Shown here: positions 15,415 to 64,000 of the stretch, one piece after another
Numbering within the stretch: the first letter of the stretch is position 1
Layout: each line of letters opens with the position of its first letter
NCBI GenBank assembly: GCA_020723385.1
Contig: DYIZ01000004.1
Coordinates: 1-64,000, forward strand
Direction: 5' to 3'
Origin: Candidatus Aquidulcis sp.
GTDB taxonomy: Bacteria; Chloroflexota; Anaerolineae; Anaerolineales; UBA4823
DNA length: 64,000 nt
Made by a program: the position numbers and the translations under genes
The notes under the pieces: generated by a model
The model's database searches: none
The model's input: only the letters and a program-made list of their open reading frames with translations
What the model was told of the DNA's origin: nothing

Positions 15415-15429
15415 AGAGGGGAAACATTA

Positions 15430-18906: not shown

Positions 18907-18908
18907 CG

Positions 18909-19487: not shown

Positions 19488-19577
19488 ATTCCTGTGCTCC
19501 TCTCATCACGCGCATGACATGATGAGAAACGCACTGACCTCTAAAATCTGACAGATTCCCCGCAAATAAATGGCAAC

Positions 19578-19853: not shown

Positions 19854-19867
19854 AGCTCACCTCGACA

Positions 19868-31943: not shown

Positions 31944-32010
31944 AGGATACCGTTACCCGCTCGGTTTTTCAGTAAAGGGGGGATGAAGGGTGACTAAAGA
32001 TGGCGTAAAA
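31944..32010 (-). promoter_or_regulatory. Phased direct-repeat promoter upstream of fliR
   Basis: On the minus strand, four hexamers at exactly 11-bp steps: TTTTAC (32005-32010), CTTTAG (31994-31999), CTTCAT (31983-31988), CTTTAC (31972-31977). After the last, 22 nt lead to TATCCT (31944-31949), the likely -10 box. Expected start near 31937, about 110 nt before the fliR start codon. It begins just after the end of the response-regulator gene. Confidence 0.82.
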
Positions 32011-36446: not shown

Positions 36447-37210
36447 GGTTGAATTTGACCTCCAGTTGATGGGATGTCCAAATTGATGGCGTCTTCGACG
36501 ACAGAGTAAACGACGATGATATCCGCCCGGCTGTTGAGGGCGCGATGCTCGGGGGTATCGTTGGGGAAGATCGGGTTGTATTCACCCCGTCCGGCGACGG
36601 TCATCCGCTGTGGAGAAACGCCGGTTGCTTCGAGATATTGTGAAATCTTATAGGCCCGTGCGAAGGAAAGCTCCCAGTTGGTTGGGTAGCGTGGGTCGGT
36701 GGGGGTTGAGTCATCGGTATAACCGACGATGCGAAGCTCATTGTCCAGATGCATGACCATCTTGGCGATGGTGTCCAAAACCGGATAGCCGTCGGGGTTC
36801 AACTCGGCTGTGCCCGGTGTAAACACGAGCTTTTCGCTCAAGGAAATCAGGATGCCCTCGATGTTGTTTTGGATGCTGACTGAACCGCCCAGGTTGGAGG
36901 CCGACAGCATATCGGTCAACTGGCTGGCGACTTCGACTGAGTTCACTGGCACGCTCGGAATACCGGGGATGATGATGGGAGCCGCTTCTTCATCCTGGCC
37001 TATGCCGCCAGCCTGATCAATCCCTGGGTCAACAATGCGTTCGGGGCCGCCGGAGAAAGCCGCCCGCAAGCTGGTGGCAAGCTGGCGGTATCGCTCGATG
37101 TCCGTTTGCCCCATGGCATAGAGTACGACGAACAAAACCATCAGCAAGGTAATGAAATCTGCGTAACTGACCAGCCAACGTTCTGAACCGCCGCCGCCGT
37201 GACCGCTCAT
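36443..37210 (-). CDS. motB: Flagellar motor stator protein MotB
   Basis: 255 residues. Anchors the stator to the cell wall and provides the ion-channel Asp. The N-terminal helix RWLVSYADFITLLMVLFVVL contains the critical Asp (D18 in SYADF). The C-terminal OmpA/Pal-like peptidoglycan domain has LSFARAYKISQYLEATGVSP then RMTVAGRGEYNPI and ALNSRADIIV. Overlaps motA by ATGA. A proton or sodium preference cannot be told from sequence alone. Confidence 0.96.
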   Translation of the reverse strand: MSGHGGGGSERWLVSYADFITLLMVLFVVLYAMGQTDIERYRQLATSLRAAFSGGPERIVDPGIDQAGGIGQDEEAAPIIIPGIPSVPVNSVEVASQLTDMLSASNLGGSVSIQNNIEGILISLSEKLVFTPGTAELNPDGYPVLDTIAKMVMHLDNELRIVGYTDDSTPTDPRYPTNWELSFARAYKISQYLEATGVSPQRMTVAGRGEYNPIFPNDTPEHRALNSRADIIVVYSVVEDAINLDIPSTGGQIQP

Positions 37211-38318: not shown

Positions 38319-38385
38319 AATTTAACATAATGCCGGACGAAAAGGTATAAATTGGCTGTGAAGGGGGAGTAAAGACGGCCTAAAA
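38319..38385 (-). promoter_or_regulatory. Phased direct-repeat promoter upstream of flbD-motA
   Basis: On the minus strand four hexamers at 11-bp steps: TTTTAG (38380-38385), CTTTAC (38369-38374), CTTCAC (38358-38363), ATTTAT (38347-38352). Then 22 nt and a TAAATT -10-like box (38319-38324). Predicted start near 38312, about 81 nt before the flbD start. It would drive flbD, motA, motB, fliL, fliM, fliN, fliO, fliP and fliQ. Confidence 0.85.
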
Positions 38386-39992: not shown

Positions 39993-40059
39993 TGAGGCAG
40001 GTTCTCGGGGCGTTGGAGTTGGCAAATTTTTATCCGTTCAGAAATTATGCTTCAATTTT

Positions 40060-40147: not shown

Positions 40148-40966
40148 TTATTCTGGATTGATCGAATATCCGTAGCCTGGGATCGTTCGAATGAACAGAG
40201 GGGTACGGGGATCATCTTCGATCCGCTCGCGCAGGTTTTTAATATGGACCCTCACCAGATCAGGGCTGCCTGCGTCGGTGGGATAATCCCACACCTCGTC
40301 CAATAACCGGGCGGGTGTAAAAATCTGCCCGGGATGGCTCATCAAATGGTAGAGCAAGTCGTATTGCACGGGCGTCAGGCGGAGTTTGCCCCGATGCGGC
40401 GTGTGTAATTCGAAAGTGCGCGTGTCCAATACGTACTCGCCGATGACCAGGCATTGGTTGGCTTCGACCGCTTTCGTCTCACCGCCGGCCTGGTTCAGGA
40501 TGGCGCGTACGCGTGGGCTGATGCTGGCGTCGCCGCTGTCAATGGCAGCGCTGGCGGCAGCCTCTTGAGATTGTTGAAGCTCAGCTTGCCGCCGGGTGCG
40601 CCGTAAAATGGCGCGTACCCGCAGGATTAGCTCGTCAATATTGAAGGGTTTGGAAAGGTAGTCGTCCGCGCCGGCGTTGAACCCGGCGATCTTGTCTTCA
40701 TCCTTGATCTTGGCAGTGAGGAACAGGATGGGGATGTTGGAGGTGAGCGGGTTTGCGCGCATCTCCCGGCAAACCGTATAACCATCCATTCCGGGCATGA
40801 TGATATCCAGAATCACCAGGTCCGGGTTGTTTTGCCGGGCGATTTTGAGGCCTTCGACGCCGCCGTTCGAAATCGTTATTTTGAAGCCTTTCCCACGCAG
40901 GCTGCGCTCGATGGTGCGAGCCACGATTTCATCATCTTCAATGATCAGTATATCGGCTTCTGACAT
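40148..40966 (-). CDS. OmpR/PhoB-family response regulator
   Basis: 272 residues. Receiver domain with EDDE, phospho-acceptor D54 (VILDIIMPGMDGY), Thr at the LFLTA strand and K106 (SKPF). A long linker (about 120-165), then a C-terminal winged helix with LRLTPVQYDLLYHLMSHPGQ, FTPARLLDEVWDYP and VRVHIKNLRERIEDDP. This family binds direct repeats of about 11-bp spacing. Encoded in a three-gene unit between two histidine kinases, 3 nt after the upstream kinase. It is the best candidate to bind the direct-repeat promoters found in this island; that is an inference. Confidence 0.93.
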   Translation of the reverse strand: MSEADILIIEDDEIVARTIERSLRGKGFKITISNGGVEGLKIARQNNPDLVILDIIMPGMDGYTVCREMRANPLTSNIPILFLTAKIKDEDKIAGFNAGADDYLSKPFNIDELILRVRAILRRTRRQAELQQSQEAAASAAIDSGDASISPRVRAILNQAGGETKAVEANQCLVIGEYVLDTRTFELHTPHRGKLRLTPVQYDLLYHLMSHPGQIFTPARLLDEVWDYPTDAGSPDLVRVHIKNLRERIEDDPRTPLFIRTIPGYGYSINPE

Positions 40967-40969
40967 AGC

Positions 40970-42457
40970 TCAACTCTCCAGAGGAAATACGATGCGGAAA
41001 ATTGTACCACTCTCGGGGGTACACTCAGCGCTGATTTCACCGGCGTGCTGGCGGACAATCTCCCGGCAGATGCTCAACTCGATGCCGGTTCCCCGCCCGG
41101 TGGCGCTCCCATAGAAATCAGGCTCGAAGAGTGTGTCGAGATGATCTGGCGAGATGGGTATCCCATTATCCCAGATTTCCACGCACAGTGTGGAAGCAGA
41201 TGCCATCTTCGAGCGTATGCTGATTTTGTGCGGTTGATTGTCGGTCATCGCACCTTGCGCCAAAAGCAACAAATTTACCCATAGGTCTTCCAATTGGCGG
41301 GCGTTTCCGCGAACCTCGTGCAAGTTTTCGACCAGCTCCAAGTTTAGGCTGATACCCGACGATACGATGCGCGCACCAACGAGGGCTAACGCATGGTGGA
41401 TCGTTTGGTTGATCGAGATGGGTTGGAGTAGTGTGGTGGACGGCCGCGAGAAATCCAACAGCCGCTCTACAACAGCCTGCGCGCGCCAGCCGGCCTGTGA
41501 AATGGCTTCGGCAGATTCCCGGCTTTCGTGATTGTCGGGCAGCGCTTGTAACAAAAGCTGGGCATCGGCTATGATCGTCGTCAGGGGATTATTGATTTGA
41601 TGGGCGACGCCTGAAGCCAGTTCTCCGAGGGTTGCCAGCCGCGCCGATTGGGTCAGCCGCGATTGCGCTGCCAGAATCTGCGCTTCCATGCGTTTTTGCT
41701 CGGTGATGTCAATGATGATGCCCTGGATAGCGTCGGCATGGCCGGTATCGTCTACTACAAAGACGCACGCGTCGCGCACCCATTTCACATCGCCATCACG
41801 CGTGATCACGCGATACTCGACCTGGAAAGGTGCTTTGTTTTCCAAAAAGCACCGGTAATCAATCGCCACACGGGCATGATCATCCGGGTGAACGAGCCTA
41901 GCCCATAGGACTGGTATTGAAATCCATTCCTCTGGGGCATAGCCGAATATTTCTCTAGCCTGGGGGCTGATATACACCGGGCCGGTCAGCTCATCTGGTC
42001 TGGCTATATACGTAACAGCGGGGATTTGTTCGACCAGGGTGCGGTAACGAGCCTCGACCCGCCGTGCAGAAAGCTGGGTTTGATAAGCCCGGATAACTTT
42101 TTCGATGAATGTGGGCAGCGTCAGCAGGTGATCGCTATTTTTGATCAGGTAATCCATCGCGCCCAGTTGAATCGCCTGGACAGCAATCCTTTCATCTCCC
42201 TGTCCGGTGAGCATCACCACCGGTACTTTATAACCTCGCCGCCCGATTTCGGCCAGAGCTTCCAAACCTGTGCCATCCGGCAAACGGTAATCCAGCAAAA
42301 TGATGTCATAATGATGCGCAGCCAGATGGTCCCAAATACTATGAATATCTACTGCCCAGTCCACCGAAAACGTGCTGGTGATTCCTAGTAAATCCGTCAC
42401 CATCTCGACGTGGTTGCTGTCGTCATCAACGATCAATACTTGAACACTATTGGGCAT
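40970..42457 (-). CDS. Hybrid histidine kinase: receiver, PAS, HisKA, HATPase
   Basis: 495 residues, no membrane helices. N-terminal receiver domain (1-125) with DDDS and D56 (IILLDYRLPDGTG), a PAS domain (about 135-252, ending with an IIIDITEQKRMEAQ linker), HisKA with H286 (GVAHQINNPLTTII), and HATPase_c (WDNGIPISPDHL, GRGTGIELSIC). The first N-box is weak (LWVNLLLLAQGAM). An N-terminal receiver suggests it takes input from another kinase, such as CheA. First gene after the two-hexamer promoter at 42504-42548. Confidence 0.9.
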   Translation of the reverse strand: MPNSVQVLIVDDDSNHVEMVTDLLGITSTFSVDWAVDIHSIWDHLAAHHYDIILLDYRLPDGTGLEALAEIGRRGYKVPVVMLTGQGDERIAVQAIQLGAMDYLIKNSDHLLTLPTFIEKVIRAYQTQLSARRVEARYRTLVEQIPAVTYIARPDELTGPVYISPQAREIFGYAPEEWISIPVLWARLVHPDDHARVAIDYRCFLENKAPFQVEYRVITRDGDVKWVRDACVFVVDDTGHADAIQGIIIDITEQKRMEAQILAAQSRLTQSARLATLGELASGVAHQINNPLTTIIADAQLLLQALPDNHESRESAEAISQAGWRAQAVVERLLDFSRPSTTLLQPISINQTIHHALALVGARIVSSGISLNLELVENLHEVRGNARQLEDLWVNLLLLAQGAMTDNQPHKISIRSKMASASTLCVEIWDNGIPISPDHLDTLFEPDFYGSATGRGTGIELSICREIVRQHAGEISAECTPESGTIFRIVFPLES

Positions 42458-43355: not shown

Positions 43356-46043
43356 CTAGAGTACTTTCACCGGACGCCCGTTGCCAGGTTTGAGAGTTGC
43401 TGTTGAGATCTTAGGTTCAGCCGAGCCTGACGGCGATCCAGCGCCCCAGGAACGGCTTTCTGATTCCCTGTTGGGTTTGTTTTGCTTCGGCGATTCTTCG
43501 ATGACGAACCCCGCGACGACAGATTTGAGGGTCTGCGCCATCTCGGCCAATGCCTGCGCCGATGCGTTGACTTCCTCAACCTGGGCGCTCATTTCCTCGG
43601 CGGAAGCAGATACCTCTTCGGTCGCGGCAGAGCTCTCCTCGCTAACGCTGGCGATGGTCTCGATGGCTTGCCTTACCTCGGAAGATCCGGCAGCCATTTC
43701 TTCTGTAGCGGCAGTGTTTTCCTCAACAACTGCTGAAACCGAATCCATCGCATTCACCAGCTCATTCGATGATGCGCTCATGCGCTGTGCAGCTTCCGCC
43801 GCCTGCACCGCCTGTTGATACACGGCTTCGGCAGCCTTCGAAATATCGGCCAGCGCCTGGCCGGCCTCGCTGGCTCGCGCGACCCCGCGGTCCATCTCTT
43901 GCACGCCATCGTTCATCGCGGTTTCGGCCTCGGCAACGATTTGCTGGATGCCGCGAATCAGCTCACCGATTTCTTTGGTTGCGGCAGACGCGCGTTCGGA
44001 TAATTTGCGAACCTCATCGGCGACAACGGCAAAACCTTTGCCTTGTTCGCCGGCGCGCGCGGCCTCGATTGCCGCATTGAGAGCCAGCAAGTTGGTCTGT
44101 GATGCGATGTCCTCGATGGTTTCCACGATCGCTCCGATCTGGTCGGAGCGCTGACCCATCTCGTTCACTTTACGCGCTGACAGCCCGACTTTGATTTTGA
44201 TGCTCTCCATATCGTTGACCGTTTCCTGTACGGTTTTAGCGCCATGCCGAGCAGCGTCGGCAGTCTTGGCCGAGTCACGCGTTACCATATCGGCATTGCC
44301 GGCGACCTGTTGGACGGCGACAGTGATTTGGGCGGCGATATTAGAAACTTTGCCAATCGAAGCAGCTTGATCTTGCGCGCCTTTCGCCACGCCATCTATC
44401 GCCTGCGTCATCTGCTCGACTGAAGCTGCGGTGCGCGTCCCAGCTTCGGATTGCTGCATGGCGCCTCTGGCTACTTGCTGTACCGTGATGGCGATTTGAT
44501 TGGTGGCCTGCCTGGCCTGGCCCGCGGCTGAAGCCAACTGGTTTGAAGCCATTTCCAAGCCAGCGGCATTTTGGGCTACCTGGCGAATGGTCTCTCGCAG
44601 TGAAGTGATCATGGTTGCAAAGGCGTTGCCCAGGGCGTCGCGTTCCGAGCGTGGAATGATTTCGGCGGTGAGATCGCCCTGCGCCAGGCGGTCAGCAGCG
44701 GCAGCCATTTCCTCGATGTAAACCGTCATCCGCCGGAAAGCCTCGGCCAGCAAGCCAACTTCGTCTCGACTTTGGTAGGCGATTCCATCGTTGATAGCGA
44801 GATCCCCTTCGGCCAGGTTGCCTGCCACACGGGCCAGACGATTGACTGGGTTAGCGATCGTGCGGGCAATGAGGATCACGATCAAAGTAATCACCACAGC
44901 AGCCGCTAAACTGACCACGCCCATCATGTTGACCATTTGAGAGCGCCCGTTTTCCAGGATGGCGCGATATTCTATAAGATCGTCTTCATACACGCCTGCG
45001 CCAATCACCCAATCCCAGGGCGCGTAATACATCAGGCGGGCAATCTTCATGCGGGCCGCTTTTTCGCCAATATTTTGCCAGGTATAACGCTCGGTCGCCA
45101 TCTCGCCTGGCCCAAGGGCGATGGCTTTTTCTACGATGGATTGTATGAAGTAGCGCCCATCGGCGTCTTGTGAGCCCCAAATATTCTCGCCATCCCGTGC
45201 GCCATCCTTCGAGATGATGTAATGGCCTTTTTGGTCGCCTGAGCCGCCCAGAATGTACACGTAACCGGTTTTGCCGACTGTCGTGTCGAGTATTGCCTGG
45301 CGCAGGGAGGTGACGTTTTCTTGTTTGATGCCGGCGTAGAGCATTCCAATGATCTCGCCATCCCCGTCCCGGATCGGCTCGTAGGCTGTGATGTACCAGT
45401 CATTCACCACGTATGCGCGACCCCGGTAGGCGTTGCCTTGCAGGATGGCGGCGATAACGGCATTGGGAACGCCGTCGGGATTAACGGCCGGGATGTAGGT
45501 GCCCACGGCGCGCTGCCCATCGGCCGTGGCGACGTTGGTCGCCACGCGCAGCATGTCGCCAGCTTCGTTCATGCGTTGAAAGATCGTGCAGGTGCCGCCG
45601 ACCAGATGCTGAACCTCATCCACGACGGGTGAAGCGACCGCCAAGTCGGAATTCTGGCCCAGCCACTGGGAGCCAGCCAGCATCTTGGGGATGCGTACCC
45701 TCTCCGATTCGCCGCTAAGCTGGTTGACGGCCGACCATTCGACAGTTTCTGCGCTCAGGCTGACCTGGCCGGTTTGCGAAAGGACATAGCGCGCAGTGTT
45801 GAGGCTGTTGCTCACTTCCTGCTGCACGGCCTCGTCTTGCGCTTTGACCATGTTATAAACGCCCATAGTAATATGATCCAAATCGCTATCGGTCAGTTTG
45901 TTTATTTCACTTTGAGCCAGCGTGTTGTACTGGCCGCTCAACCAAAAAACCAGGATCACGAGGATCAATGCAATACCGAGCACGCTGACTGTGCAAACCA
46001 GGGAGAGTTTGAGGCTGAGTTTGAGATTTCTAAACGCTTTCAT
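43356..46043 (-). CDS. Methyl-accepting chemotaxis protein with double Cache sensor
   Basis: 895 residues from the ATG at 46043 (GAGGTG upstream). TM1 at about 12-34; an exported sensor of about 330 residues with Cache3/Cache2-fusion features ([40 protein letters not shown]) and an sCache part ([38 protein letters not shown]); TM2 about 366-390; HAMP and a second HAMP-like segment to about 500; then the long signalling coiled coil with tip [20 protein letters not shown] near 680. No C-terminal CheR-binding pentapeptide. The ligand is unknown. The only chemoreceptor in the window. Overlaps nothing; PilZ follows. Confidence 0.95.
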
Positions 46044-46260
46044 CGCAGCACCTCTAATCGTGAGATCACGTGTCTTGGTTCGCCTGCAGGCCGCCATTGA
46101 CTGGCGAAACCCGAAGGGTCCCAAGCGGTTGCTGACCGCTGAAGATCAGCATCGGATGTGATGCCGGATCCCCTCCTTTGTCTCCCTGGTTATGTTTTGT
46201 GGCTCTCCCGCCGGAATCGGGGCGCCTGTTTCGTTTTTTGGCGCTAAGGATATTCGATCA
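46044..46260 (-). other. Structured 5' leader of the chemoreceptor gene
   Basis: Non-coding 217 nt. Hairpins on the minus strand: GCGCC/GGCGC (46222-46226 with 46240-46244), GCATC/GATGC (46149-46153 with 46160-46164), AGCGGT/ACCGCT (46124-46129 with 46135-46140), ACCC/GGGT (46109-46112 with 46116-46119), CGCCA/TGGCG (46092-46096 with 46102-46106). The density suggests a regulatory RNA or riboswitch. No class could be assigned: the conserved segments of the cyclic-di-GMP-I (GEMM) motif are not present in the transcript. Confidence 0.5.
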
Positions 46261-47469
46261 TCATCCCAGCGCCAGCTCGTTACCGACGACTGATGTCCAG
46301 CGCAGTGCATCGAGGTATGCATCACGAATTTGCGAGCGATTCAAAGGAAATGCTTCGACGATGGTCCAATCGCCCTTTTCGTAAGCCAGGGAGCACTTCA
46401 ATACCTGGCCTAACTTGCCTTCGTATCGCATCAATGCGGCAGTGACATCCTCGCTCAATGGCAGCGTGGTCAGCGCCTGATCCATGGGAAGCTCCATCAG
46501 CGCGTCCAGCACCGAAAATAATCCGACTAAAAAATGGGTTTCGGAATTTTGCTCGCCCATTGCCAGGGCCAGCCTCTCACACATTTTCCCTCGGATCATG
46601 GCGAAGGTGGTCAGGGCGCGCGGTTTTTCGCCAAGCCCTGAAAGGAGGAAGAGCGTCAGCCAGCCGCGTAGTTTTTGGATACCCAGCAGCGACATGGCCT
46701 GGCGGATGGATTTGACTTTGGTCGGGATGCCATAATAGGCCGAGTTGACCAGGCGCAGCAGTTTGTAGCCGAGGGTCACGTCTTGGGCCACGACGTTTTC
46801 CAGCTCTTGAAATTCGACTTTCGGGTTGTGCAGCCGGCCTAAAGTTTGCATGACCACCAACCGGCTGGTGGGGACCGCGTGGCCCTTGACCATCTCGGGC
46901 CGGCATAAAAAATAGCCTTGAAAGTAGTCGAAGCCCAGGCTGAGACACTCGTCGAAATCTGCCTGGGTTTCGACTTTCTCGGCCAAGAGCCTGATCTGAT
47001 ATTTTCGGAGACAGGCAATGCTTTTCGCCAGCGCATCCCGATCGGTCAAGATCAGATCTACCTTGACGATGTTCGCCACTCCCAGGAGAGAATCAACCGA
47101 GCATGGGTTGACCACATCATCCAGGGCGATCTGATATCCCCGTTCGGATAAGCCTTTCAAGGCCCCGATCAACTCATCGTCAACCAGAATGTTCTCTGGC
47201 ACTTCTAAAACCACTTGCTCAGGTGAAAAGGGAATAGGATAATGGTCCAGGATGAAATTGCGGGTGAGGTTGATATACGCCTTCTGGCTCCCGACGATGC
47301 CCTCCAAACCAAACTCGGCAAATGCGTTCAGAATCACCTGAGATGTGGCGGTATCGCTGTCGCTGAATTCGGCGCGATTATTGTCGCCGTTCCGGTATAG
47401 CAGCTCATAACCGGTGATATTGGCGCGCCGATCGAAAATTGGTTGCCTGGCGATGAGAATATCTGACAT
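46261..47469 (-). CDS. Degenerate EAL plus HDOD signalling protein (YuxH type)
   Basis: 402 residues from ATG at 47469. N-terminal EAL domain (about 1-195) lacks catalytic residues: the EAL position is ELL in GYELLYRNG, and metal ligands are not preserved (LEVPENILVD, IALDDVV). It should bind, not cleave, c-di-GMP or be a pure interaction domain. The C-terminal HDOD domain (about 195-395) also lacks the HD metal pair. Combination is common in motility and chemotaxis loci. Starts 5 nt after the end of cheX; last gene before the MCP leader. Confidence 0.85.
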   Translation of the reverse strand: MSDILIARQPIFDRRANITGYELLYRNGDNNRAEFSDSDTATSQVILNAFAEFGLEGIVGSQKAYINLTRNFILDHYPIPFSPEQVVLEVPENILVDDELIGALKGLSERGYQIALDDVVNPCSVDSLLGVANIVKVDLILTDRDALAKSIACLRKYQIRLLAEKVETQADFDECLSLGFDYFQGYFLCRPEMVKGHAVPTSRLVVMQTLGRLHNPKVEFQELENVVAQDVTLGYKLLRLVNSAYYGIPTKVKSIRQAMSLLGIQKLRGWLTLFLLSGLGEKPRALTTFAMIRGKMCERLALAMGEQNSETHFLVGLFSVLDALMELPMDQALTTLPLSEDVTAALMRYEGKLGQVLKCSLAYEKGDWTIVEAFPLNRSQIRDAYLDALRWTSVVGNELALG

Positions 47470-47473
47470 GAGA

Positions 47474-48001
47474 TTAAGGCCTTTCTCGCGCAGGATTCCA
47501 AGACGGGGCGGCGAAACTTTCCTCGACCACACGCGCCCCATTGGCTTCGCGCAGCGCCAGGTGGGTTTCCAGTTGGCCCCAATCTCCCACCAAAGGGACG
47601 ATCAGCCGGGCATAATCCAGTGTGGAAATCGTCGCGCCTTTACCGCGCAGCAGGGTTGGCGGTGAGATGACCGAACCAAAACCGGCGTTAGCGAGCTTGA
47701 CACTCGCCCTGCCGGTGATGACGTTCCCCAATTCGGCGACGCCGCTTTGCGCCAGGCCATTGATGGCTGTGAATGTCTCGCCCATGATTCGTGAAGCGAG
47801 GAATAAAGCCGTTGACTCTGACATGCTGTAAATGACGTTCCCCACCACTTGACCGATCAGGCTGATGATCACCGTCACATCATTGGTGATGTAAGGCTCC
47901 TTTTCCAGTCTTAGCTCGCCACGCCGGGTGACATAGCCGATCTCAGCCTGGATGACCTCGGTGGCAGCATCAACAAAGGGGTTTAGAAATTTGACGTTCA
48001 T
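47474..48001 (-). CDS. cheX: CheX-like CheY-P phosphatase (copy 1)
   Basis: 175 residues. CheX/CheC/FliY-family phosphatase that removes phosphate from CheY-P. The active-site pair is E90 and N93 in SGVAELGNVITGRAS. Length is typical. It starts MNVKFLNPFVDAATEVIQAE, almost the same as the next gene (MDVNFMNPFVDSAAEVLKAE), so the two are a tandem duplication. The 120-bp gap from the upstream copy contains an imperfect hairpin region. GGAGAT precedes the start. Confidence 0.9.
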   Translation of the reverse strand: MNVKFLNPFVDAATEVIQAEIGYVTRRGELRLEKEPYITNDVTVIISLIGQVVGNVIYSMSESTALFLASRIMGETFTAINGLAQSGVAELGNVITGRASVKLANAGFGSVISPPTLLRGKGATISTLDYARLIVPLVGDWGQLETHLALREANGARVVEESFAAPSWNPARERP

Positions 48002-48649: not shown

Positions 48650-49504
48650 TCAGACTCTCCTCGTTTGGATCAGGTAATCGGCTTCGTCAATGAATGGTAT
48701 GACGCGTTCGAGCAGCTCATTGAAGCCGCTTTCATTCCAACCGACACGCTCACAGGCTTCCGGGTCCAGTTGGTATTGCAAGCCATCGCGTCCCAGCCCG
48801 ACGCCCATCATCATCATTGCGGCGTCGGCGACATGAACTGATGCCGCCAGGAGCGCTCCCTCGGTCGCTTGAGCGGGGTGGTGGTGATGGGCGACAGCAT
48901 CTACCATTCGACGGGGCAGCCGCCAACGTTGAACCATCTCGGCTCCCAGGGCGGCATGGTCAATCCCGAAATGAGCCAATTCCAGATCTGAAAAAGATTG
49001 CCCCCGCCAATCGGGGGTGTTTGTATCCACCTGGCGCAGCAGAATCTCGAATACCAGCTTGCCGATATCGCTGAGCAGGCCTGCGTGGTAGGCTTCCTCG
49101 GACACCTGGGGGCCGAACCGGGCTGCGATCAGCCGCGCCCCCGCTGCGACGCCGATCGAATGACGCCACAGGTCGCCACGCTCGAGGGCGTATCCGGGCG
49201 CTGGCCGGTCGAGCAGCGCTGCCACGGAGGCTGCCAGAATCAAACTGTGCAGCGTCCTCTGTCCGAGATAAACCACGGCCTGCTGTACGGTCGCCACCGG
49301 GAATTTTAGGCCGAAGTAAGCGGAATTAGCCCAGCGCAGCACCAGGCCGGTCAGCGATTGATCCATCGTCAGCACGGATGCCAGCGTACCCATATCTGAA
49401 TCTGGGTTGCGGATTAATTCCAGCGCCCTTTGCGCGACCTGCGGCATGGGCGGTAGCTCACCGACCCGGGCGATCAACTCATTGGCGGACAGTTTGACAG
49501 TCAT
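48650..49504 (-). CDS. HDOD domain signalling protein
   Basis: 284 residues. HDOD proteins lack nuclease/phosphohydrolase metal ligands of true HD domains and act in signal transduction. The HDOD segment covers nearly the whole length: NELIARVGELPPMPQVAQRA, SVLTMDQSLTGLVLRWANSA YFG-type core, and HHHPAQATEG near the C-terminus. Coupled to cheR by ATGA overlap. Confidence 0.85.
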   Translation of the reverse strand: MTVKLSANELIARVGELPPMPQVAQRALELIRNPDSDMGTLASVLTMDQSLTGLVLRWANSAYFGLKFPVATVQQAVVYLGQRTLHSLILAASVAALLDRPAPGYALERGDLWRHSIGVAAGARLIAARFGPQVSEEAYHAGLLSDIGKLVFEILLRQVDTNTPDWRGQSFSDLELAHFGIDHAALGAEMVQRWRLPRRMVDAVAHHHHPAQATEGALLAASVHVADAAMMMMGVGLGRDGLQYQLDPEACERVGWNESGFNELLERVIPFIDEADYLIQTRRV

Positions 49505-55562: not shown

Positions 55563-55629
55563 ATCCTAGCACGGCGCTATCACGAGGACTGTAAAGCGAT
55601 CATAAAATTACTGGAAAAGAGGAGTAAAA
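55563..55629 (-). promoter_or_regulatory. Phased direct-repeat promoter of the two-CW-cheA operon
   Basis: On the minus strand four hexamers at 11-bp steps: TTTTAC (55624-55629), TTTTCC (55613-55618), TTTTAT (55602-55607), CTTTAC (55591-55596). Then 22 nt to TAGGAT (55563-55568). Predicted start near 55556, 32 nt before the two-CW start codon. The upstream end abuts the stop of the M23 gene. Confidence 0.82.
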
Positions 55630-56401: not shown

Positions 56402-56468
56402 CTTTACCCTGCCTTTATGCAATCTTCAGCGCCTATTTACGGCAGGTTACCGGCGATTGTCGTAGAGT
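56402..56468 (+). promoter_or_regulatory. Phased direct-repeat promoter of TPR-glycosyltransferase 1
   Basis: CTTTAC (56402-56407), CTTTAT (56413-56418), CTTCAG (56424-56429) and ATTTAC (56435-56440) at 11-bp steps, then 22 nt and TAGAGT (56463-56468). Predicted start near 56475, about 100 nt before the gene's ATG. Confidence 0.82.
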
Positions 56469-56575
56469 AGTGATTGCCAGAGCCAGACGATCTTGGCGTA
56501 AGAAAATCGAAGGGACGATCCCAACTATCCGTACCTGCAAACACCATCTCTCTAATTTCCACCCAAAAGGCACCC

Positions 56576-58183
56576 ATGCTCCCTGAATCATTCGACCACC
56601 TCTTGGCCCAGGCCGACGCCTCTGCCCAGCGCGGCGACTGGCTGGCCGCTTTCGATCACTTGCAATCAGCCAACCGCCTGGTTCCAGATCATACCGGTGT
56701 GCTGACCGGCATGGGGACGTGCCTGATTCAGCTTTCGCGCGCCCCCGAAGCCATCCTATATTTCCAGCAGGTGACCGCCTTAGCCCCCGATTCCCCCGAG
56801 GCATTCAACAATCTTGGGGTGGCTCAGGCCCTCGACGGCCAGCTCGACGGGGCTGAAGCCGCTTACCAGCAGGCGATCACCCTCGCTCCTGAGCATCAGC
56901 AGGCTTGGAAGAATCTGGCGGTCGTTTATTTGCGGCAGGCGCGCTGGGAAGAAGGTGTACCCATCCTGGCAGCCCTGATCAAAGACCACCCGCAGGATGT
57001 GGAGAGCCTGGATTTGCTGGCGCAATGTTACGAGGCGGGCGGCGAAATCGAATCGGCCCGCGCGTTATACCAGCAGATCCTGTCGCTCGACAGTGAACAC
57101 GAAGCAGCCCGAGCGGCGCTGGCGCGCCTGACGCCGGCTGCATCTCCTGACCGCATCGCCCGACCGGAACACGCCAAAAAGTTGGCTGCGCTCAAAGGGT
57201 TGAAACAAGACGTTTCGGCGCAGGCCAGGGCAGCCCAATCGGTTGTGATCTATGCCCCCGATGAATTGGCTGACAGCGACCGGATGAAGAAGATGGCCGA
57301 GACGCTGGCGGGTGAGGGCTGGACGCCGCGCCTCTCACCGGCCTTCGACCCTGCCGACCTGGGACGCGACGATCTGCTCGTGTTCGCCCAGCCTCATTTC
57401 TCCGGCAACCTGCTCGCCGGCGTGAGCGCCTGCATCCAGTCTGGCAAGCCTTTCGCCATTGACCTGGTTCAAGACGACCGCTGCCTGCCGGTGGAACACC
57501 CGCTTTACAGTCAGCTTGGGCCGGGCAACCCGCGCGCCGCCCAGACGCTGGAAGTCATGCTGCGCGAGGCGCAGTGGGTGAGCCTGACTTCACCGGCGCT
57601 GGCTGAGCGTTTCCGTCCGCAGGCCAAAGAGGTCAAAGTCATCCTGCCGGCCTGGAGCCATGCCAACCCGCTTTGGGAGAAACCCTGCGCGCCGCACATC
57701 ACCCTCAACATTGGCTGGATCGGAAACCCCGCCGAACGCGGCGATTTGCTGGCGATCCGGCCTGACTTGCTCAAAATCCTGCGCGCCGTGCCGCAGTCGG
57801 CGCTGGTCATCGCCGGGGATGGGGGGGCTTACGAGCGCTTCCATGCCCTGCCCGAAGCGCGCCGCCAGTTTCTTCCAGCAGCCTCCTCCGGCGACATTCC
57901 CTATTTACTGGCGCAGCTCGATATATTGATCATCCCCTGGCGGGCCAGCCCCTGGAACCAGACCCGCTCCGACCAGCCGCTCATGCAGGCCGGGATTCGC
58001 CGCGTCCCCTGGGTAGCAACGCCTATCCCGGCTTATAAAGCCTGGGAAGCAGGCGGACTGTTCGCCGAAAAGGCTGGCGATTGGTACACCGCGTTGAAAA
58101 AATTGGCTTTAGATCCAGGCTTGCGCAAAGAACTGGGTGAGGCGGGGCGGGAGAAAGCGAAAGACCGCCAGCTGGCCGAGTGA
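56576..58183 (+). CDS. TPR-glycosyltransferase fusion protein
   Basis: 535 residues. N-terminal tetratricopeptide repeats (about 1-170: NNLGVAQALDGQLDGAEAAY and AWKNLAVVYLRQARWEEGVP and LAQCYEAGGEIESARALYQQ), then a GT-B-like glycosyltransferase half (about 215-535) with IGWIGNPAERGDLLAIRP, ALVIAGDGGAYERFHALPEA, and a LIIPWRASPWNQTRSDQPLM donor-type segment. Substrate unknown. ATG at 56576 is used because the predicted transcription start (about 56475) excludes the earlier in-frame start at 56474. First of three surface-glycan genes after the flagellar island. Confidence 0.8.
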   Translation: MLPESFDHLLAQADASAQRGDWLAAFDHLQSANRLVPDHTGVLTGMGTCLIQLSRAPEAILYFQQVTALAPDSPEAFNNLGVAQALDGQLDGAEAAYQQAITLAPEHQQAWKNLAVVYLRQARWEEGVPILAALIKDHPQDVESLDLLAQCYEAGGEIESARALYQQILSLDSEHEAARAALARLTPAASPDRIARPEHAKKLAALKGLKQDVSAQARAAQSVVIYAPDELADSDRMKKMAETLAGEGWTPRLSPAFDPADLGRDDLLVFAQPHFSGNLLAGVSACIQSGKPFAIDLVQDDRCLPVEHPLYSQLGPGNPRAAQTLEVMLREAQWVSLTSPALAERFRPQAKEVKVILPAWSHANPLWEKPCAPHITLNIGWIGNPAERGDLLAIRPDLLKILRAVPQSALVIAGDGGAYERFHALPEARRQFLPAASSGDIPYLLAQLDILIIPWRASPWNQTRSDQPLMQAGIRRVPWVATPIPAYKAWEAGGLFAEKAGDWYTALKKLALDPGLRKELGEAGREKAKDRQLAE

Positions 58184-58201
58184 TTAATTGGGTAAATTCC
58201 G

Positions 58202-61200
58202 ATGAATCCGAATCGTATCGCCATTCTCATCACCAATTACAACATGCCCGAGCGCGCCAACGCCCTGGTCGAAGCGATCCGGCAGCGGGTGAAATGGCCG
58301 CACGACCTGATCCTCGTGGACAACGGCTCCGATCTCGAGCCGCCCAGCCTATATACCACCCTGCGGCTGGCGAATAACATCCAGACCACCGGCGGGTGGC
58401 TGAAGGGTCTGGATTACGCCGGCCAACTGGCGCTCGAACACGGCGAGCCATATCTCGCTTATTGGTTCCTGATCACCTCCGCCGAATTTCTGCCCGGCGG
58501 CGGCGACCCATTAGCCCCGCTGGCCGAACTGCTGCTCAACGACCCCAATGCGGTCGGCGTTCATCCGGCGCTGGCCCCCGACAGCACGACCAATTGGGAG
58601 CATTTGGTTGCCCAGGGCGGCGACCAGCCTCGCCGGGCGTGGATGATTGACAACATTGCAAGCCTTTACCGCGCCGACTGGTTCGACAGCATTGGGCGCT
58701 TCGACCCGGCGTTGACCTTCGCTCACGGCATTGACCTGGAAACCTGCTGGAAAGCCCGCCGTGAGGGCCGCTCGTTGTGGGTTCACGAGGGCAGCCAGGT
58801 TAAGAAGATCAGCAACATTGGTTACACCATGAACCGCATGAACATGACCGCCTCCGACCGGGTGCGGCTGGCAAAAGAAAACATGGATGCCGTGCTCGGC
58901 CAGCGTTACGGTGCGGATTATTGGGAGCGGTTGATGAATGAGTATCGAGACTATGAACAGGTTCGTAGTGACGGCTTCTGCCGTCCTCCCGCGAATGCGA
59001 CTGAAGTCGCTACTACGAACCACACCCCCGTTCGCAGCGACGGCTTCAGCCGTCCTCCTGCGATGAATCCCGCCATCCTCCTCGTCGCCCACGGATTCCC
59101 GCCCAAAACCCTGGGCGGCGTGGAACTGTATACCTATTACCTGGCTCAGGAACTGAGCCAGCGCGGCCACCACGTGCGGGTGCTCTACCCCGAATGGGAC
59201 GACACCCGCCCGGCTGGTGAAATCGCCGAGGCCGTTTTCGACAATATCCCCGTAACGATCTTGAACCTGAATCGCTCGGCAAACCAGGCCGATACTTTCA
59301 AGAACGAGGCCGTCGCCGCCGTCATTGAGCGCTGCCTGTCAGAACTGAAGATTGACGTTGTGCACTTCAATCACCTGATCGGCGTATCGGCCTCAGCCTT
59401 GCACGCCTGCGCCCGGCTTGGCCTCCCAACCGTACTGACCCTGCACGATGGCTGGCTGCTGTGCGAGCAGATACACTTCAATCACCCTGATGGCCGGTTA
59501 TGTCCCGGCCCAGAAACGATAGACAACTGCGCCCAGTGCTTCGCCCAACGACATCCCGAGATCGCTGCACCTGGCAAACTCCCGGAAATCTATTACACCC
59601 TGGCGCTGCGCAGGGACTATTTGCAGCGCAGCCTGGGACTGATCCACACCATCACCGTCCCCACGCGTTTCCTGCGGGATCGCCTCGAAGAGTTTGGGTT
59701 TCAGCATCCCCGGGTCATTCTCGCCCCCCTGGGGCTGAAACCCTTCCCGCCGCTTCCGTTGATCCCCCGCCAGGGCCGGGTGCGCTTCACCTGCCTGGGA
59801 AGTATCTACCCCACGAAGGGTACGGATGTATTGATCCGCGCCTTCAACCAGGTTGACCCGCAGAAAGCGCAGCTCGACCTGTACGGCAATATCCTCGATC
59901 CTGGCTACTACGAGAAAACTATGGCTTTGATCGAGCCGGGGCAGCCGGTGACCTATCACGGCAGCTATACGCCTGGTGATCTACCCGCTATCCTTTCCCA
60001 AACCGACGTGGCTGTGGTTCCCTCGCGCAGCGAAAACTACCCCACCGTTGTGCGCGAGTGTCTTCATGCCGGAACGCCGGTCATCGGGCCGGAAGTCGGC
60101 GGCGTGCCGGAGATTATCCAGGACGGCGACAACGGCCTTCTTTTTCGGGTGGGCGATGACGCCGATTTGGCCGGGAAGATCAATTTCATCGTAGAAACCC
60201 CGGATGTTATCGCCCTCCTGCGCCGGCGCATCCAGCCGGTGAGAACTATCGCCGAAGATGCGGATTGGTACGCTGGGCTGTACCGCCAGATTCTGGATGG
60301 CGATACTGCTTCGCCGTTAGCCCTCGACCGCCTCACCTCGATCCAGACAGATCTGTTCAGCCAGGCGCGCCAATTGCAGGCTGATCTTGTTCAGGCGCAT
60401 GATACCGAGAAAGCCCAACAGCGCCAGCTCGATTTCTGGCAGCGCCAGCTTGCAAACCGGGAAGCCGAAGATGCCCAGCATCGCCGCGCCCGCCGCCAGA
60501 TTTCGGAACGCGTGGATTTGGTGCGCGCCCAATTGGGCGGCGATGCGGCCTCCCCCGGCGACCTGCCAGCCTGCCGCCAGCCCTATGACATTCTGATCCC
60601 GATCTACAACGCCCGCGAACACGTTCAGCGCTGTGTGGAGAGCGTCATCCGGCATACGGACCCCGTTCACCCGGTTTACCTGCTCGATGATGCCAGCCCC
60701 GACCCGGCTATCCTGCCGCTGTTGTATGACTTCGAGCGCAATCACCCCCAGGTCAAAGTCGTCCCCTCCGAGTGCAATGGCGGCTTTATCGCCAACATCA
60801 ACCGCGGCTTTGGGTTGTCGCGCAACCCGGTCGTGATCCTCAATTCCGATACGGAAGTCACGCCCGGCTGGCTGGAACGGCTGGATCGCTGCGCGGCCAG
60901 CGACCCGCGCATCGGGATTGTGTCACCCCTCTCGAATAACGCCACACTCCTCTCGGTTCCAGAGATGAACGCCGCCAACCATCTGCCGGATGGGGTGACT
61001 CCCACCCGGGCGGCGGAAATCGTCGCCCGGGTCTCGCCGCGCGCCTATCCGCGCCTGCCGACTGCGGTCGGTTTTTGTATGCTCATCACCCGCCAAACGC
61101 TGGATTGCATCGGGGAATTCGACCTGGCTTTCGGGCTGGGCTATGGCGAGGAGAACGATTTTTGTATGCGCGCCTGGCAGGCCGGGTTCGAGACGGCTGC

Positions 61201-62941
61201 CTGCGATGACGCCTACGTTCACCATTACGGCGAGGCCTCCTTCAGCCAGGTCAAACAGATTGACGCCCGCCGCTTGCGCAACCAGGCGCTGCTCGACAAG
61301 CGTTGGCCGCAATATCACCACACCGTGCGCGCTTACTGTCACCTGAATCCCTTACGGTTGGTGCAGGAGCGCCTGGAAGCCGCCATACACCGGCGCGCCG
61401 GCGAGGCCCGCCCGCACGTGCTGCACGTCATTCACAGCTACGGCGTGCTGGCCGGCACGGAGTTGTTTACCAAAAACCTGGCAGATGGGCTGGCGGAGAG
61501 CTATCGTTCGACCGTTTTCTACCCCGTTGCGCAGCCTGACCTGTGGACCGACATCACCAGCGAGCGGCTCAACGAGCACACCCGGCTGCTCCGCATCAGC
61601 CGCGAGAACGCCGTTCCGAAAGATTATTTCTCCGGTTTCCCCGCCGAGCTGACCAACAGCGTGATGGAAACGAGCTTCGCCCGTGTCCTCGCCGGGGGCG
61701 ATTACGATATCGTCCATTTCCAACACCTGGGCGGCTGGCCGACGCTGCTCTTGCCGTTCATTGCCAAATCTTTCGGCAAAATCGTTATCCTGTCGCTGCA
61801 CGATTATTTCCTGCTCTGCCCAGAATACCATTTGGTGCTGCCCGAAGCGCGGCGCTGCGGCAAGCCCGGCGTCCAGCCGGATGACGCCGAATGCCAGCGC
61901 TGCCTGGCAGCCAAGCGATACACGCCCTCCGGGATGCAGACCCCGCTGACGGAATACCTGGCCGAACGGGCCGCTATTACCCGGCAGATCGTCGAAGCTG
62001 TGGATGTAATCATAGCGCCTTCGATTTTTGTGCGCAATCGTTATGTGCAAGCCTACGGCGAGGCGATTTCCGGCAAGATCGTCGTCATCCCGCATGGGGT
62101 AGACGTTCCCCGCCGCAGCCCGCGCCCGCCGCGCCAAAAGACTCTGCGTGTAGCCTTTCTGGGCAACATGACCGACCGCAAAGGGGGCCATGTTCTGCTG
62201 GAGGCGGCGCGCAAGCTGCGCGGCAAGCCCGTGCGGTTCGAGGTCTTCGGCAATGTACAGCCGGAATTCGTGGACGCGGCGGCCCAGGCTGGTGTGATCC
62301 TGCACGGCCCTTACCGGCCCGAAACGCTGCCCCGGCTGCTGGCCGGGGTTGACCTGGCGGCGATTCTATCGGTGGTGGACGAGGTGTTCTGCCTGACGTT
62401 GAGCGAGGCCCAGGCGATGGGCGTGCCGGTGATCGCCTCGTCTGTGGGGGCGATGAGCGAGCGGGTTGTGGATGGGCTGACCGGTTTCCTCGTTCCGCCG
62501 GGCGACGCAGATGCGCTCGCCGACCGGCTGCTGGCTTTGGCTGCCGATGCCCGCTCATTGCAGCCGGTCATCGCCGGGCTGGCGGCGCTGAAAGTCAAGT
62601 CAACGGCTGAAAACGTGGCAGATTATGGGCGTCTCTATGCAGAAATGTTGGGGGGACGCGGCGTCGAGTCGCAATGGCTGCGCTCGGTGCTCGCAGGGGG
62701 CGCGTCACACCCCGTTGAGCAGGCCGACCCTGGGACCGTCTTGCAAGCCTTGCTGGAAAGCGACGATTTGCCCGCCGCGCTGGAAGCGAACCACAGCCGC
62801 CTGAATGCCGGCTTGCTGGCGTTGGTGCGCCTGAACGCCAGCGCCGCCCGCGCCGATGGGGACGCCGAACTGGCCGAGGGTCTCGGGGCGCTGGGGGAGT
62901 ATATCGAGAGAGTGGTCTTCAACGGAATTCGAGCGGAGTAG
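58202..62941 (+). CDS. Giant multidomain glycosyltransferase
   Basis: 1579 residues. Four glycosyltransferase modules in order: GT2-like (about 1-250: AILITNYNMPERANALVEAI, LVDNGSD), a GT4 (about 288-700: HGFPPKTLGGVELYTYYLAQ, PSRSENYPTVVRECLHAGTP), a Gln/Arg-rich helical spacer (about 715-775), a GT2 (about 793-1050: YDILIPIYNA, ILNSDTEVTPGWLERLDR, LGYGEENDF), a second GT4 (about 1072-1490: GVLAGTELFTKNLADGL, LSEAQAMGVPVIASSVGAMS), and a helical tail. Residues 254-287 are coded by repeat DNA (see the repeat entry). The second module opens with a natural-looking start, MNPAILLVAHGF (M288). Likely builds a multi-sugar surface or flagellin glycan; no substrate can be named. Confidence 0.88.
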   Translation: MNPNRIAILITNYNMPERANALVEAIRQRVKWPHDLILVDNGSDLEPPSLYTTLRLANNIQTTGGWLKGLDYAGQLALEHGEPYLAYWFLITSAEFLPGGGDPLAPLAELLLNDPNAVGVHPALAPDSTTNWEHLVAQGGDQPRRAWMIDNIASLYRADWFDSIGRFDPALTFAHGIDLETCWKARREGRSLWVHEGSQVKKISNIGYTMNRMNMTASDRVRLAKENMDAVLGQRYGADYWERLMNEYRDYEQVRSDGFCRPPANATEVATTNHTPVRSDGFSRPPAMNPAILLVAHGFPPKTLGGVELYTYYLAQELSQRGHHVRVLYPEWDDTRPAGEIAEAVFDNIPVTILNLNRSANQADTFKNEAVAAVIERCLSELKIDVVHFNHLIGVSASALHACARLGLPTVLTLHDGWLLCEQIHFNHPDGRLCPGPETIDNCAQCFAQRHPEIAAPGKLPEIYYTLALRRDYLQRSLGLIHTITVPTRFLRDRLEEFGFQHPRVILAPLGLKPFPPLPLIPRQGRVRFTCLGSIYPTKGTDVLIRAFNQVDPQKAQLDLYGNILDPGYYEKTMALIEPGQPVTYHGSYTPGDLPAILSQTDVAVVPSRSENYPTVVRECLHAGTPVIGPEVGGVPEIIQDGDNGLLFRVGDDADLAGKINFIVETPDVIALLRRRIQPVRTIAEDADWYAGLYRQILDGDTASPLALDRLTSIQTDLFSQARQLQADLVQAHDTEKAQQRQLDFWQRQLANREAEDAQHRRARRQISERVDLVRAQLGGDAASPGDLPACRQPYDILIPIYNAREHVQRCVESVIRHTDPVHPVYLLDDASPDPAILPLLYDFERNHPQVKVVPSECNGGFIANINRGFGLSRNPVVILNSDTEVTPGWLERLDRCAASDPRIGIVSPLSNNATLLSVPEMNAANHLPDGVTPTRAAEIVARVSPRAYPRLPTAVGFCMLITRQTLDCIGEFDLAFGLGYGEENDFCMRAWQAGFETAACDDAYVHHYGEASFSQVKQIDARRLRNQALLDKRWPQYHHTVRAYCHLNPLRLVQERLEAAIHRRAGEARPHVLHVIHSYGVLAGTELFTKNLADGLAESYRSTVFYPVAQPDLWTDITSERLNEHTRLLRISRENAVPKDYFSGFPAELTNSVMETSFARVLAGGDYDIVHFQHLGGWPTLLLPFIAKSFGKIVILSLHDYFLLCPEYHLVLPEARRCGKPGVQPDDAECQRCLAAKRYTPSGMQTPLTEYLAERAAITRQIVEAVDVIIAPSIFVRNRYVQAYGEAISGKIVVIPHGVDVPRRSPRPPRQKTLRVAFLGNMTDRKGGHVLLEAARKLRGKPVRFEVFGNVQPEFVDAAAQAGVILHGPYRPETLPRLLAGVDLAAILSVVDEVFCLTLSEAQAMGVPVIASSVGAMSERVVDGLTGFLVPPGDADALADRLLALAADARSLQPVIAGLAALKVKSTAENVADYGRLYAEMLGGRGVESQWLRSVLAGGASHPVEQADPGTVLQALLESDDLPAALEANHSRLNAGLLALVRLNASAARADGDAELAEGLGALGEYIERVVFNGIRAE
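58961..59063 (+). repeat. Repeat DNA within the glycosyltransferase gene
   Basis: A 34-nt unit (58961-58994) is repeated with five or so changes at 59030-59063. The ends GTTCGTAGT (58961-58969) and ACTACGAAC (59012-59020) are exact reverse complements, and inner GACTGAAGTC is palindromic. The element is read in frame as linker residues 254-287. This looks like a dispersed 'gacttcagtc' repeat that merged two adjacent genes. Confidence 0.8.
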
Positions 62942-62949
62942 CCGATTTA

Positions 62950-62982
62950 AGACCCCAGGGGTTTCGAAAACCCCTGGGGTCT
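62950..62982 (+). terminator. Hairpin after the giant glycosyltransferase gene
   Basis: 15-bp perfect stem (62950-62964 with 62968-62982) with a CGA loop, 9 nt past the stop codon. Only weakly T-rich after it. Possibly a dispersed palindrome used as terminator; its GC-rich design resembles 18029-18061. Confidence 0.7.
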
Positions 62983-63002
62983 GTGTGCGAAGCCTCCTCG
63001 CC

Positions 63003-63069
63003 CTTTACCCCTCCTTTACGCCGCTTTCATCGTGTCTTTACTGACCACTCTGGCTCGAACTGGTAAAGT
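63003..63069 (+). promoter_or_regulatory. Phased direct-repeat promoter of TPR-glycosyltransferase 2
   Basis: CTTTAC (63003-63008), CTTTAC (63014-63019), TTTCAT (63025-63030) and CTTTAC (63036-63041) at exact 11-bp steps, then 22 nt and TAAAGT (63064-63069). Predicted start near 63076, about 30 nt before the ATG at 63106. Confidence 0.85.
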
Positions 63070-63105
63070 AGGGCCAGGACTGATTTAACTGTCGAAGGTA
63101 TTGTC

Positions 63106-64000
63106 ATGACCCAACTGGCCACCCATTCCCCCACCGATTTGAACGCCAGGAAGGCGCTTGGCCGGACGCATTTAAGCGAGAACCGGATCGAAGACGCCCT
63201 CCGCGTGTATGCCAGCATCTTGCGGGACTACCCCAATGATGTGGATTCTTACCTGGTCCTGGGGGATTGTTATCTGGCCGATGGGGATAACCGCTCCGCG
63301 AGTATTTTTTACTCCCAAGCGCTGAAACTGACTCCGACCAGCCTGGATATTCACCGCCGGCTGCGCCTGGCTGATGATGAGTGTGAAACGCCCTCCGGGG
63401 TCGTCCCTTCCGACCCGCGTGCGGTCGCCGACATGCTGCAACACCTGACGGGCCGCCCGACGCCGGTCAGCGATGCCGAGGTCAGCCGGGCAGCCAGCCT
63501 GTTGGATGAAATCGTCAATTGCCCGCACCCGGCGCAGGCGGTAGCCGAACACTTGAACGAGATTGACGCGCTGCTCCCGGCGCTGTTGGAGTTGAATATC
63601 CGCCAGGCGCGCTCGGATGGCCGCCCCGATCTGGCGCAGGCGCTGCAAAGTCTGTTGAATCACATTCACTTGCAAATGGACGAGCCAGCTTCCACTGGTG
63701 CGGAGTCCGGGCCGCCGCTGCAATTGCTCGCTGGCAGCAGAACAAAAGCAAAGCTGGTTCCGGCTGAGACGAGAATCCTGCTTCTCTCCGGGGCAGAGGA
63801 GACGCTCTCTTTCCGCCGATCCCTTTCGGCTGAGTCGCTTTCTGCTCTCGGCTGCCAACTCATCCGGGCGAAGGATTTTCCCTCCGAGCCGGGCGCCTTC
63901 GATATTGCTATCGTCCACAACCCGCACTGCACGCCTCACCTCATGGCTGGAATGGCCGGTTGCACGGCTTCTGGAACGCCGGTGATCGTGGATCTCGATC
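63106..64000 (+). CDS. TPR protein, probable glycosyltransferase (partial, runs off the window)
   Basis: 298 residues visible with no stop before the right edge. Begins MTQLATHSPTDLNARKALGR. Tetratricopeptide repeats at about 12-85 (VYASILRDYPNDVDSYLVLG, YSQALKLTPTSLDIHRRL), then a helical region, then from about 224 a Rossmann-like start (TRILLLSGAEETLSFRRSLS; FDIAIVHNPHCTPHLMAGMA). The last part aligns in pattern with the start of the glycosyltransferase half of the 56576 gene, so they look like paralogues. GAAGGT ahead of the ATG is a weak ribosome site. Confidence 0.75.
   Translation, partial: MTQLATHSPTDLNARKALGRTHLSENRIEDALRVYASILRDYPNDVDSYLVLGDCYLADGDNRSASIFYSQALKLTPTSLDIHRRLRLADDECETPSGVVPSDPRAVADMLQHLTGRPTPVSDAEVSRAASLLDEIVNCPHPAQAVAEHLNEIDALLPALLELNIRQARSDGRPDLAQALQSLLNHIHLQMDEPASTGAESGPPLQLLAGSRTKAKLVPAETRILLLSGAEETLSFRRSLSAESLSALGCQLIRAKDFPSEPGAFDIAIVHNPHCTPHLMAGMAGCTASGTPVIVDLD

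Follow-up and report, generated by a model that had tools for sequence, protein, structure and literature searches.

A probable flagellin glycosylation locus was found at the downstream end of the first 64,000 bases of contig DYIZ01000004.1 (C46 hereafter) from the genome of Candidatus Aquidulcis sp. (GCA_020723385.1, our G000). The window, as we call this whole stretch, covers bases 1-64000 of the 86102 bp of C46, in a genome of 6.43 Mb and 239 contigs. Two genes of the window encode proteins that join tetratricopeptide repeats (TPR) to a glycosyltransferase (GT) half, here named TPR-GT1 and TPR-GT2. From gene order, co-occurrence with flagella, a shared promoter and a predicted fold, all read from sequence, we consider it likely that they belong to a cytoplasmic flagellin glycosylation system of the Anaerolineales (Chloroflexota) in which the TPR part docks flagellin, as it does in FlmG. 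A preliminary description of this DNA had proposed a flagellin glycosylation locus, and the proposal is supported by the analysis reported here, which predicts a glycosylated filament.

The genes of the locus and those that follow it are given below, with positions above 64000 being those of C46.

56576 (ATG) to 58183 (stop), forward strand: TPR-GT1, with N-terminal TPRs recognised by Pfam and a C-terminal GT-B/GT4-like half
58202-62941, forward strand: giant multidomain glycosyltransferase, in which Pfam recognises two GT4 and one or more GT2 domains
62950-62982, forward strand: perfect 15-bp hairpin in the gap between the giant glycosyltransferase and TPR-GT2, terminator-like, without a U-run
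63106-64000 within the window and on to contig position 64764, forward strand: TPR-GT2, first gene of a conserved cassette
64761-65924, forward strand: GT387, past the window, overlapping TPR-GT2 by 4 nt (TPR-GT2 stop 64764, GT387 start 64761)
65921-66736, forward strand: SUMF1-like protein, past the window, overlapping GT387 by 4 nt
66963-67883, forward strand: flagellin (fliC), past the window, 2.2 kb beyond TPR-GT2
67976-69634, forward strand: fliD, past the window
starts at 69722, 70222 and 70746, forward strand: flaG, fliS and flgC respectively, past the window, downstream of fliD
after flgC, forward strand: fliE, fliF and fliG, past the window, named from position and order

The preliminary description had placed the flagellin gene outside the window, and extension of the contig located both fliC and fliD on the same strand, right after the cassette. 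It had also described the two TPR-GT genes as flanking the giant glycosyltransferase and sharing a module order; this holds, as both proteins have an N-terminal TPR part and their GT halves are homologous, with 41% identity over 317 aa. A Pfam scan of the locus proteins (E-value up to 0.01) matched the GT half of TPR-GT2 weakly and left that of TPR-GT1 unmatched, and these halves are therefore assigned as glycosyltransferases from their homology to each other and from the predicted fold of TPR-GT2. The giant glycosyltransferase, which is lineage-specific, begins 18 nt after the stop of TPR-GT1 and has no repeat site of its own. The hairpin downstream of it was predicted to fold, in a stretch of 59 nt, with a minimum free energy of -31.3 kcal/mol (z -4.7).

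The distribution of the TPR-GT genes was compared in 151 genomes of the order Anaerolineales, G000 counted. A genome was taken as flagellate if Flagellin exceeded the Pfam cut-off and/or FliG was found, the query for FliG being the protein at its place on C46; each was found in 26 of the 151 genomes, which together gives 28 flagellate genomes. Strong TPR-GT homologues (more than 180 bits; the best genome below that has 84) occur in 22 of the 151 genomes. When gene presence was set against flagella, a comparison put forward in the preliminary description, 21 of the 28 flagellate genomes were found to carry a strong homologue as against one of the 123 others (Fisher p 9e-19, kinship ignored). 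Weaker GT4-like matches (E-value up to 0.001), with which the total becomes 70 of 151 genomes, were excluded from this count. The association is also seen within one genus (g19), where G029, G032, G034 and G037 have both flagellin and TPR-GT and G018 has neither, while G036 has flagellin and lacks a strong TPR-GT. In a phylum sample of 400 genomes, flagellin was found in 48 and a strong TPR-GT in four, these being the four flagellin-positive genomes of the order.

The neighbourhood of the TPR-GT genes was read in 21 genomes, that of G037 being left out. TPR-GT2, GT387 and the SUMF1-like gene follow each other in that order in sixteen of them, with TPR-GT2 cut by a contig end in G020 and G039. 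The exceptions are G009 and G042, which lack the SUMF1-like gene, G149, which lacks GT387, G084, which has the TPR-GT1 type only, and G010, which lacks both the TPR part and the SUMF1-like gene. In ten of the 21 genomes fliC lies on the same fetched stretch as the TPR-GT locus; in G050 and G140 the neighbours of the cassette are flagellar regulators together with chemotaxis or peptidase genes, with fliC located elsewhere. The slot between TPR-GT1 and TPR-GT2 is variable, being occupied by the giant glycosyltransferase here and by other sugar genes elsewhere, such as that of a nucleoside diphosphate (NDP)-sugar dehydratase-like protein in G001. G024 (L084) has, upstream of TPR-GT2, an 1828-aa multi-GT protein (12901-18384) and a sulfotransferase-like protein (18405-19997), the latter possibly indicating a sulfated filament glycan. 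The cassette is also present in the cultured isolates Thermanaerothrix daxensis and Bellilinea caldifistulae (L121, L133), and both are suited to testing.

The preliminary description had named occurrence of the locus in non-flagellated relatives as a finding that would speak against it. One such relative was found, G010 (98% complete), in which Flagellin_N and FliG were not found and which is the sole non-flagellate strong TPR-GT carrier, but neither the TPR domain nor the SUMF1-like gene survives in its locus. Its TPR-GT2 homologue has 380 aa and retains the repeat site described below. The surrounding stretch (L077, C9:14000-33999) retains csrA, flgN, a fliA-like sigma factor, regulators and glycosyltransferases, with no flgK or flgL seen between csrA and flgN. 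As a single case, G010 is consistent with a docking part that disappeared after flagellin had been lost, and since it is without both flagellin and TPR it is suggestive, though only that, of a TPR half that docks flagellin. The joint loss makes the docking model directly testable.

G010 also bears on a different explanation, in which the glycosyltransferases make a cell-surface polysaccharide or envelope glycan and the flagellar cluster is a mere location. It retains two glycosyltransferases though non-flagellate, and the giant glycosyltransferase, like the relatives' genes for GT2, a sulfotransferase and an NDP-sugar dehydratase, has a polysaccharide-like character. We nevertheless regard this explanation as very improbable, as the glycosyltransferases are lost along with flagella and share a promoter with flagellar genes, and no polysaccharide polymerase or flippase family was seen among the scanned neighbour proteins.

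The shared promoter is a further line of evidence for a flagellar role. TPR-GT1 and TPR-GT2 had each been described as following four hexamer repeats, and both sites were confirmed, together with further ones upstream of flagellar and chemotaxis operons.

56402-56440, forward strand: four direct repeats with 11-bp spacing (YTTYAY-N5), upstream of TPR-GT1
56462-56470, forward strand: -10-like GTAGAGTAG, 21 nt past these repeats, read from sequence and column conservation
63003-63041, forward strand: four direct repeats with 11-bp spacing, a perfect match to YTTYAY-N5 x4, upstream of the TPR-GT2 operon
63063-63071, forward strand: -10-like GTAAAGTAG, 21 nt past these repeats, likewise read from sequence and column conservation
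55591-55629, reverse strand: repeat site upstream of a 116-aa open reading frame and the cheA operon
38347-38385, reverse strand: repeat site upstream of the operon containing motB (36443-37210)
31972-32010, reverse strand: repeat site upstream of fliR (31068-31829)

A sixth named repeat site on C46 precedes flgC. These repeats are far more frequent than expected by chance: a three-repeat CTTTAC-N5 pattern with up to three mismatches has six matches in the window against 0.01 expected, and none of 100 shuffles reached six. In the whole genome, the four-repeat pattern gave 20 matches at up to three mismatches against two in a reversed control, eight of the 20 being on C46, and at up to two mismatches seven of twelve matches fall on this contig, which makes up 1.3% of the genome. 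Thirty-six stretches from relatives (485757 bases) gave 66 matches at up to three mismatches and one in the reversed control. Counted within 300 nt upstream of genes in the relatives' loci, at up to three mismatches, the site precedes TPR-GT2 in 13 of 17 loci, flgC in 11 of 14 and TPR-GT1 in five of eight (eight of eight at up to five mismatches), and precedes fliC in one of 24 and the M23 peptidase gene in one of six. It was not found upstream of GT387 (0/19), the SUMF1-like gene (0/17) or fliD (0/20), nor in 3000 control windows. An alignment of 33 repeat sites (up to four mismatches) revealed a common -10 of TANAAT type at a fixed distance downstream of the repeats, its key columns having T in 29, A in 30 and T in 25 of the 33, and no evident -35 element. 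The promoter signature lets a flagellar regulon be read from sequence. Repeats of this type are not confined to flagellar genes, since they, often in a CTTCAC-like form, also occur in non-flagellate genomes, with a mean of 1.33 matches per genome in the 123 non-flagellate genomes (control 0.36) versus 6.6 in the 28 flagellate ones (control 0.5). The CTTCAC-type 11-bp repeats of the non-flagellate relatives probably belong to another OmpR/PhoB-type regulon.

Co-control with flagellar genes, claimed in the preliminary description, thus holds for the promoter type shared with the basal-body operon, in G000 and in relatives, but does not extend to flagellin itself, as a sigma-28-like TCAAG-N10..20-GATAA element was found at 12 of 24 fliC loci. 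This element was absent from the TPR-GT, GT387, SUMF1-like, fliD and flgC loci; a promoter of sigma-28 type was accordingly rejected for the GT genes (0/17 TPR-GT2 and 0/8 TPR-GT1 loci). The looser TMAA-N-SGATA pattern was seen at three of 17 TPR-GT2, one of eight TPR-GT1 and 15 of 24 fliC loci. The different promoter types suggest that the GT operons are, like the basal body, of an earlier class, and that flagellin is of a late sigma-28 class.

This split would also suit a target other than flagellin, namely another exported flagellar protein such as the FliD cap or the hook. The GT promoter type is common to the basal-body operon and not to flagellin, and the cassette has fliD, flaG and further flagellar genes almost as near to it as fliC. 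We consider such a target unlikely, as in most of the linked loci no flagellar structural gene is nearer than fliC and the TPR and Maf flagellar glycosyltransferases of the papers cited below modify flagellin.

Structural evidence comes from a predicted model of TPR-GT2, which consists of helical repeats and a GT-B half (predicted local distance difference test score, pLDDT, 87.6; predicted template modelling score, pTM, 0.62); given this pTM, how the two halves are placed relative to each other is uncertain. GT4 enzymes match the GT half best, with BshA at Z 27.8 over 309 aligned residues and a root mean square deviation of 2.8. The VIA-align rows span the GT half only, which leaves the TPR half barely tested. 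The top Foldseek matches of the model were SPINDLY and O-GlcNAc transferase (OGT) at whole-chain template modelling (TM) scores of 0.3-0.4, the OGT matches being attributable to the shared TPR and GT-B make-up. A solved-structure search with the TPR-GT alignment returned TPR proteins, and the same search with GT387 returned no matches (E-value 0.001). The SUMF1-like protein contains the SUMF1/formylglycine-generating enzyme (FGE) domain PF03781 (E-value 1.9e-54), and its nearest solved structures are ToxD and CalU17. In its RGGS..C....C stretch an invariant Tyr stands at the first FGE cysteine and the second has no counterpart; we take these two cysteines to be the catalytic pair of FGE.

Several observations weigh against a flagellin glycosylation system of this kind. 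Kinship inflates the Fisher p of the co-occurrence, and seven of the 28 flagellate genomes (G036, G051, G053, G088, G090, G127 and G137) have no strong TPR-GT, from which it follows that flagella do not require one. Of the flagellin-positive genomes in the phylum sample, 44 come from outside the order, and a strong TPR-GT was found in none of them. In seven of the 21 read genomes the cassette stretch, often a short contig, is without fliC, and four of the 17 TPR-GT2 loci have no upstream repeat site at up to three mismatches. Although the central part of the flagellin has 24 Ser/Thr among its 76 residues, the Ser/Thr content of this part ranges from 18.7 to 38.2% over all rows, carriers and non-carriers alike, and Ser/Thr richness was rejected as proof since it does not separate the two. 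Homologues of the candidate regulator described below are present in some flagellin-negative genomes. Finally, TPR-GT2 has a degenerate EX7E-type motif, the GT4 motif, whose terminal Glu is present in seven of 16 rows.

The last of these points opens the possibility of a two-subunit enzyme, as the motif is kept in GT387: the terminal Glu is found in 18 of 18 GT387 rows (and in six of seven rows of the TPR-GT1 type), and the basic residue three positions before it in 16 of 18 GT387 rows versus six of 16 TPR-GT2 rows. TPR-GT2 would then be a docking pseudo-glycosyltransferase, GT387 the catalyst and the SUMF1-like protein a third subunit. The two genes overlap by 4 nt and travel together among relatives. 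GtfB is reportedly the non-catalytic partner of GtfA, and we know of no TPR in either protein. GtfA and GtfB, which act cooperatively on serine-rich-repeat adhesins (PMC7661464), provide the logic of two cooperating glycosyltransferases on one protein substrate, one of them possibly non-catalytic, and differ from the present case in substrate and secretion route. Motif degeneracy does not, however, prove inactivity. OGT-type GT-B enzymes are known to function without an EX7E motif, and in G149 TPR-GT2 and the SUMF1-like gene occur in the absence of GT387. We therefore hold this arrangement, which is a variant of flagellin glycosylation and not its denial, to be tentative. Its fuller form, a three-part flagellin glycosyltransferase made of a TPR pseudo-glycosyltransferase captor, the GT4-like catalyst GT387 and a SUMF1-fold subunit that lacks the FGE cysteines, under a new flagellar promoter class of four 11-bp direct repeats and a housekeeping -10, is doubtful.

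For the likely cytoplasmic flagellin glycosylation system, we infer the activity, its substrate and donor, the regulator and the timing as follows. An activator bound to the four tandem repeats, which a housekeeping -10 follows at 21 bp, would turn on the GT operons and, at the same time, those for the hook-basal body, motor, export and chemotaxis. Flagellin would be expressed later from its sigma-28 promoter, and with the GT operons early and flagellin late, the enzymes would already be there when flagellin appears. The N-terminal TPR of TPR-GT2 would capture flagellin still unexported, and TPR-GT2, alone or with GT387, would attach the first sugar to Ser/Thr in the central part of flagellin ahead of export. 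The SUMF1-like protein would form a third part of the TPR-GT2/GT387 unit, and glycan binding or modification is a guess at its role. TPR-GT1 and the giant glycosyltransferase would make or lengthen a strain-specific glycan.

The sugar donor does not appear to be restricted to nonulosonic acids. NeuB exceeded its cut-off in all 24 genomes searched and is strong (E-value <1e-40) in 17 of 22 TPR-GT carriers, the remaining five being G026, G039, G047, G072 and G084, and none is encoded on contig C46 of G000. An obligatory pseudaminic or legionaminic acid donor was therefore rejected.

Pfam includes a Maf-type glycosyltransferase domain and a GT41 catalytic domain; in our scan the former was not reported for TPR-GT1, TPR-GT2 or GT387 and the latter for none of the locus glycosyltransferases. 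The likeness to O-GlcNAc transferase and SPINDLY lies in the make-up of a protein O-glycosyltransferase from TPR and GT-B, and the difference in a GT half of TPR-GT2 that is GT4-like, has no GT41 match and reaches only the TM scores given above. FlmG of Caulobacter crescentus is a flagellin O-glycosyltransferase of TPR and GT-B type whose TPR half binds flagellins and which works with pseudaminic acid (PMC7591256). Compared by description, it shares with the TPR-GT proteins an N-terminal TPR, a C-terminal GT-B, a length of about 550-600 aa, a tie to flagellin and no expected export signal. In contrast to FlmG, the system here does not seem to require pseudaminic acid, has GT387 and the SUMF1-like protein as its usual partners and shows a degenerate GT4 motif. 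Maf flagellin glycosyltransferases (PMC13317340), some of which have a TPR or the partner GlfM, resemble the present system in modifying flagellin in the cytoplasm with specificity from a TPR or a co-encoded partner, and differ in the Maf-type domain. Islands for flagellin glycosylation with TPR-GTs have been described from Proteobacteria and Clostridium (PMC7591256; PMC13317340). Among titles and abstract openings we found no published work on flagellin glycosylation in Chloroflexota, and a literature search on the promoter motif gave nothing useful. A survey of this phylum listed 233 potentially flagellated genomes of 3780 (PMC12488501), flagella are described as directly seen in one genus alone, Tepidiforma (PMC10284905), and Thermanaerothrix daxensis, with a genome that encodes a flagellum, was nevertheless reported to be non-motile (PMC4653793).

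Two candidate regulators were found in the window.

40148-40966, reverse strand: OmpR-type response regulator (receiver and Trans_reg_C), a candidate binder of the repeats
25262-26116, reverse strand: sigma-70-family factor, FliA-like (regions 2, 3 and 4), a candidate sigma-28 for flagellin

OmpR/PhoB-type regulators typically use tandem 11-bp repeats, and two histidine kinases (40970-42457 and 38388-40025) are encoded in the same cluster as the response regulator. With 16 candidates scored per genome, its close homologues (E-value up to 1e-60) were found in 30 of the 151 genomes and were unseen in several flagellate ones, where misses are possible at this number of candidates. As this spread does not follow flagellin, the response regulator was rejected as a proven binder of the repeats, and its binding is putative. 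Two more sigma-70-family proteins with regions 2 and 4 (17337-18071 and 18909-19487, ECF-like, that is, of the extracytoplasmic function type) are encoded near csrA and flgL. The chemotaxis genes also enclose an EAL-HDOD protein (46261-47541) and an HDOD protein (48650-49504), with a Cache-type methyl-accepting chemotaxis protein at 43356-46124.

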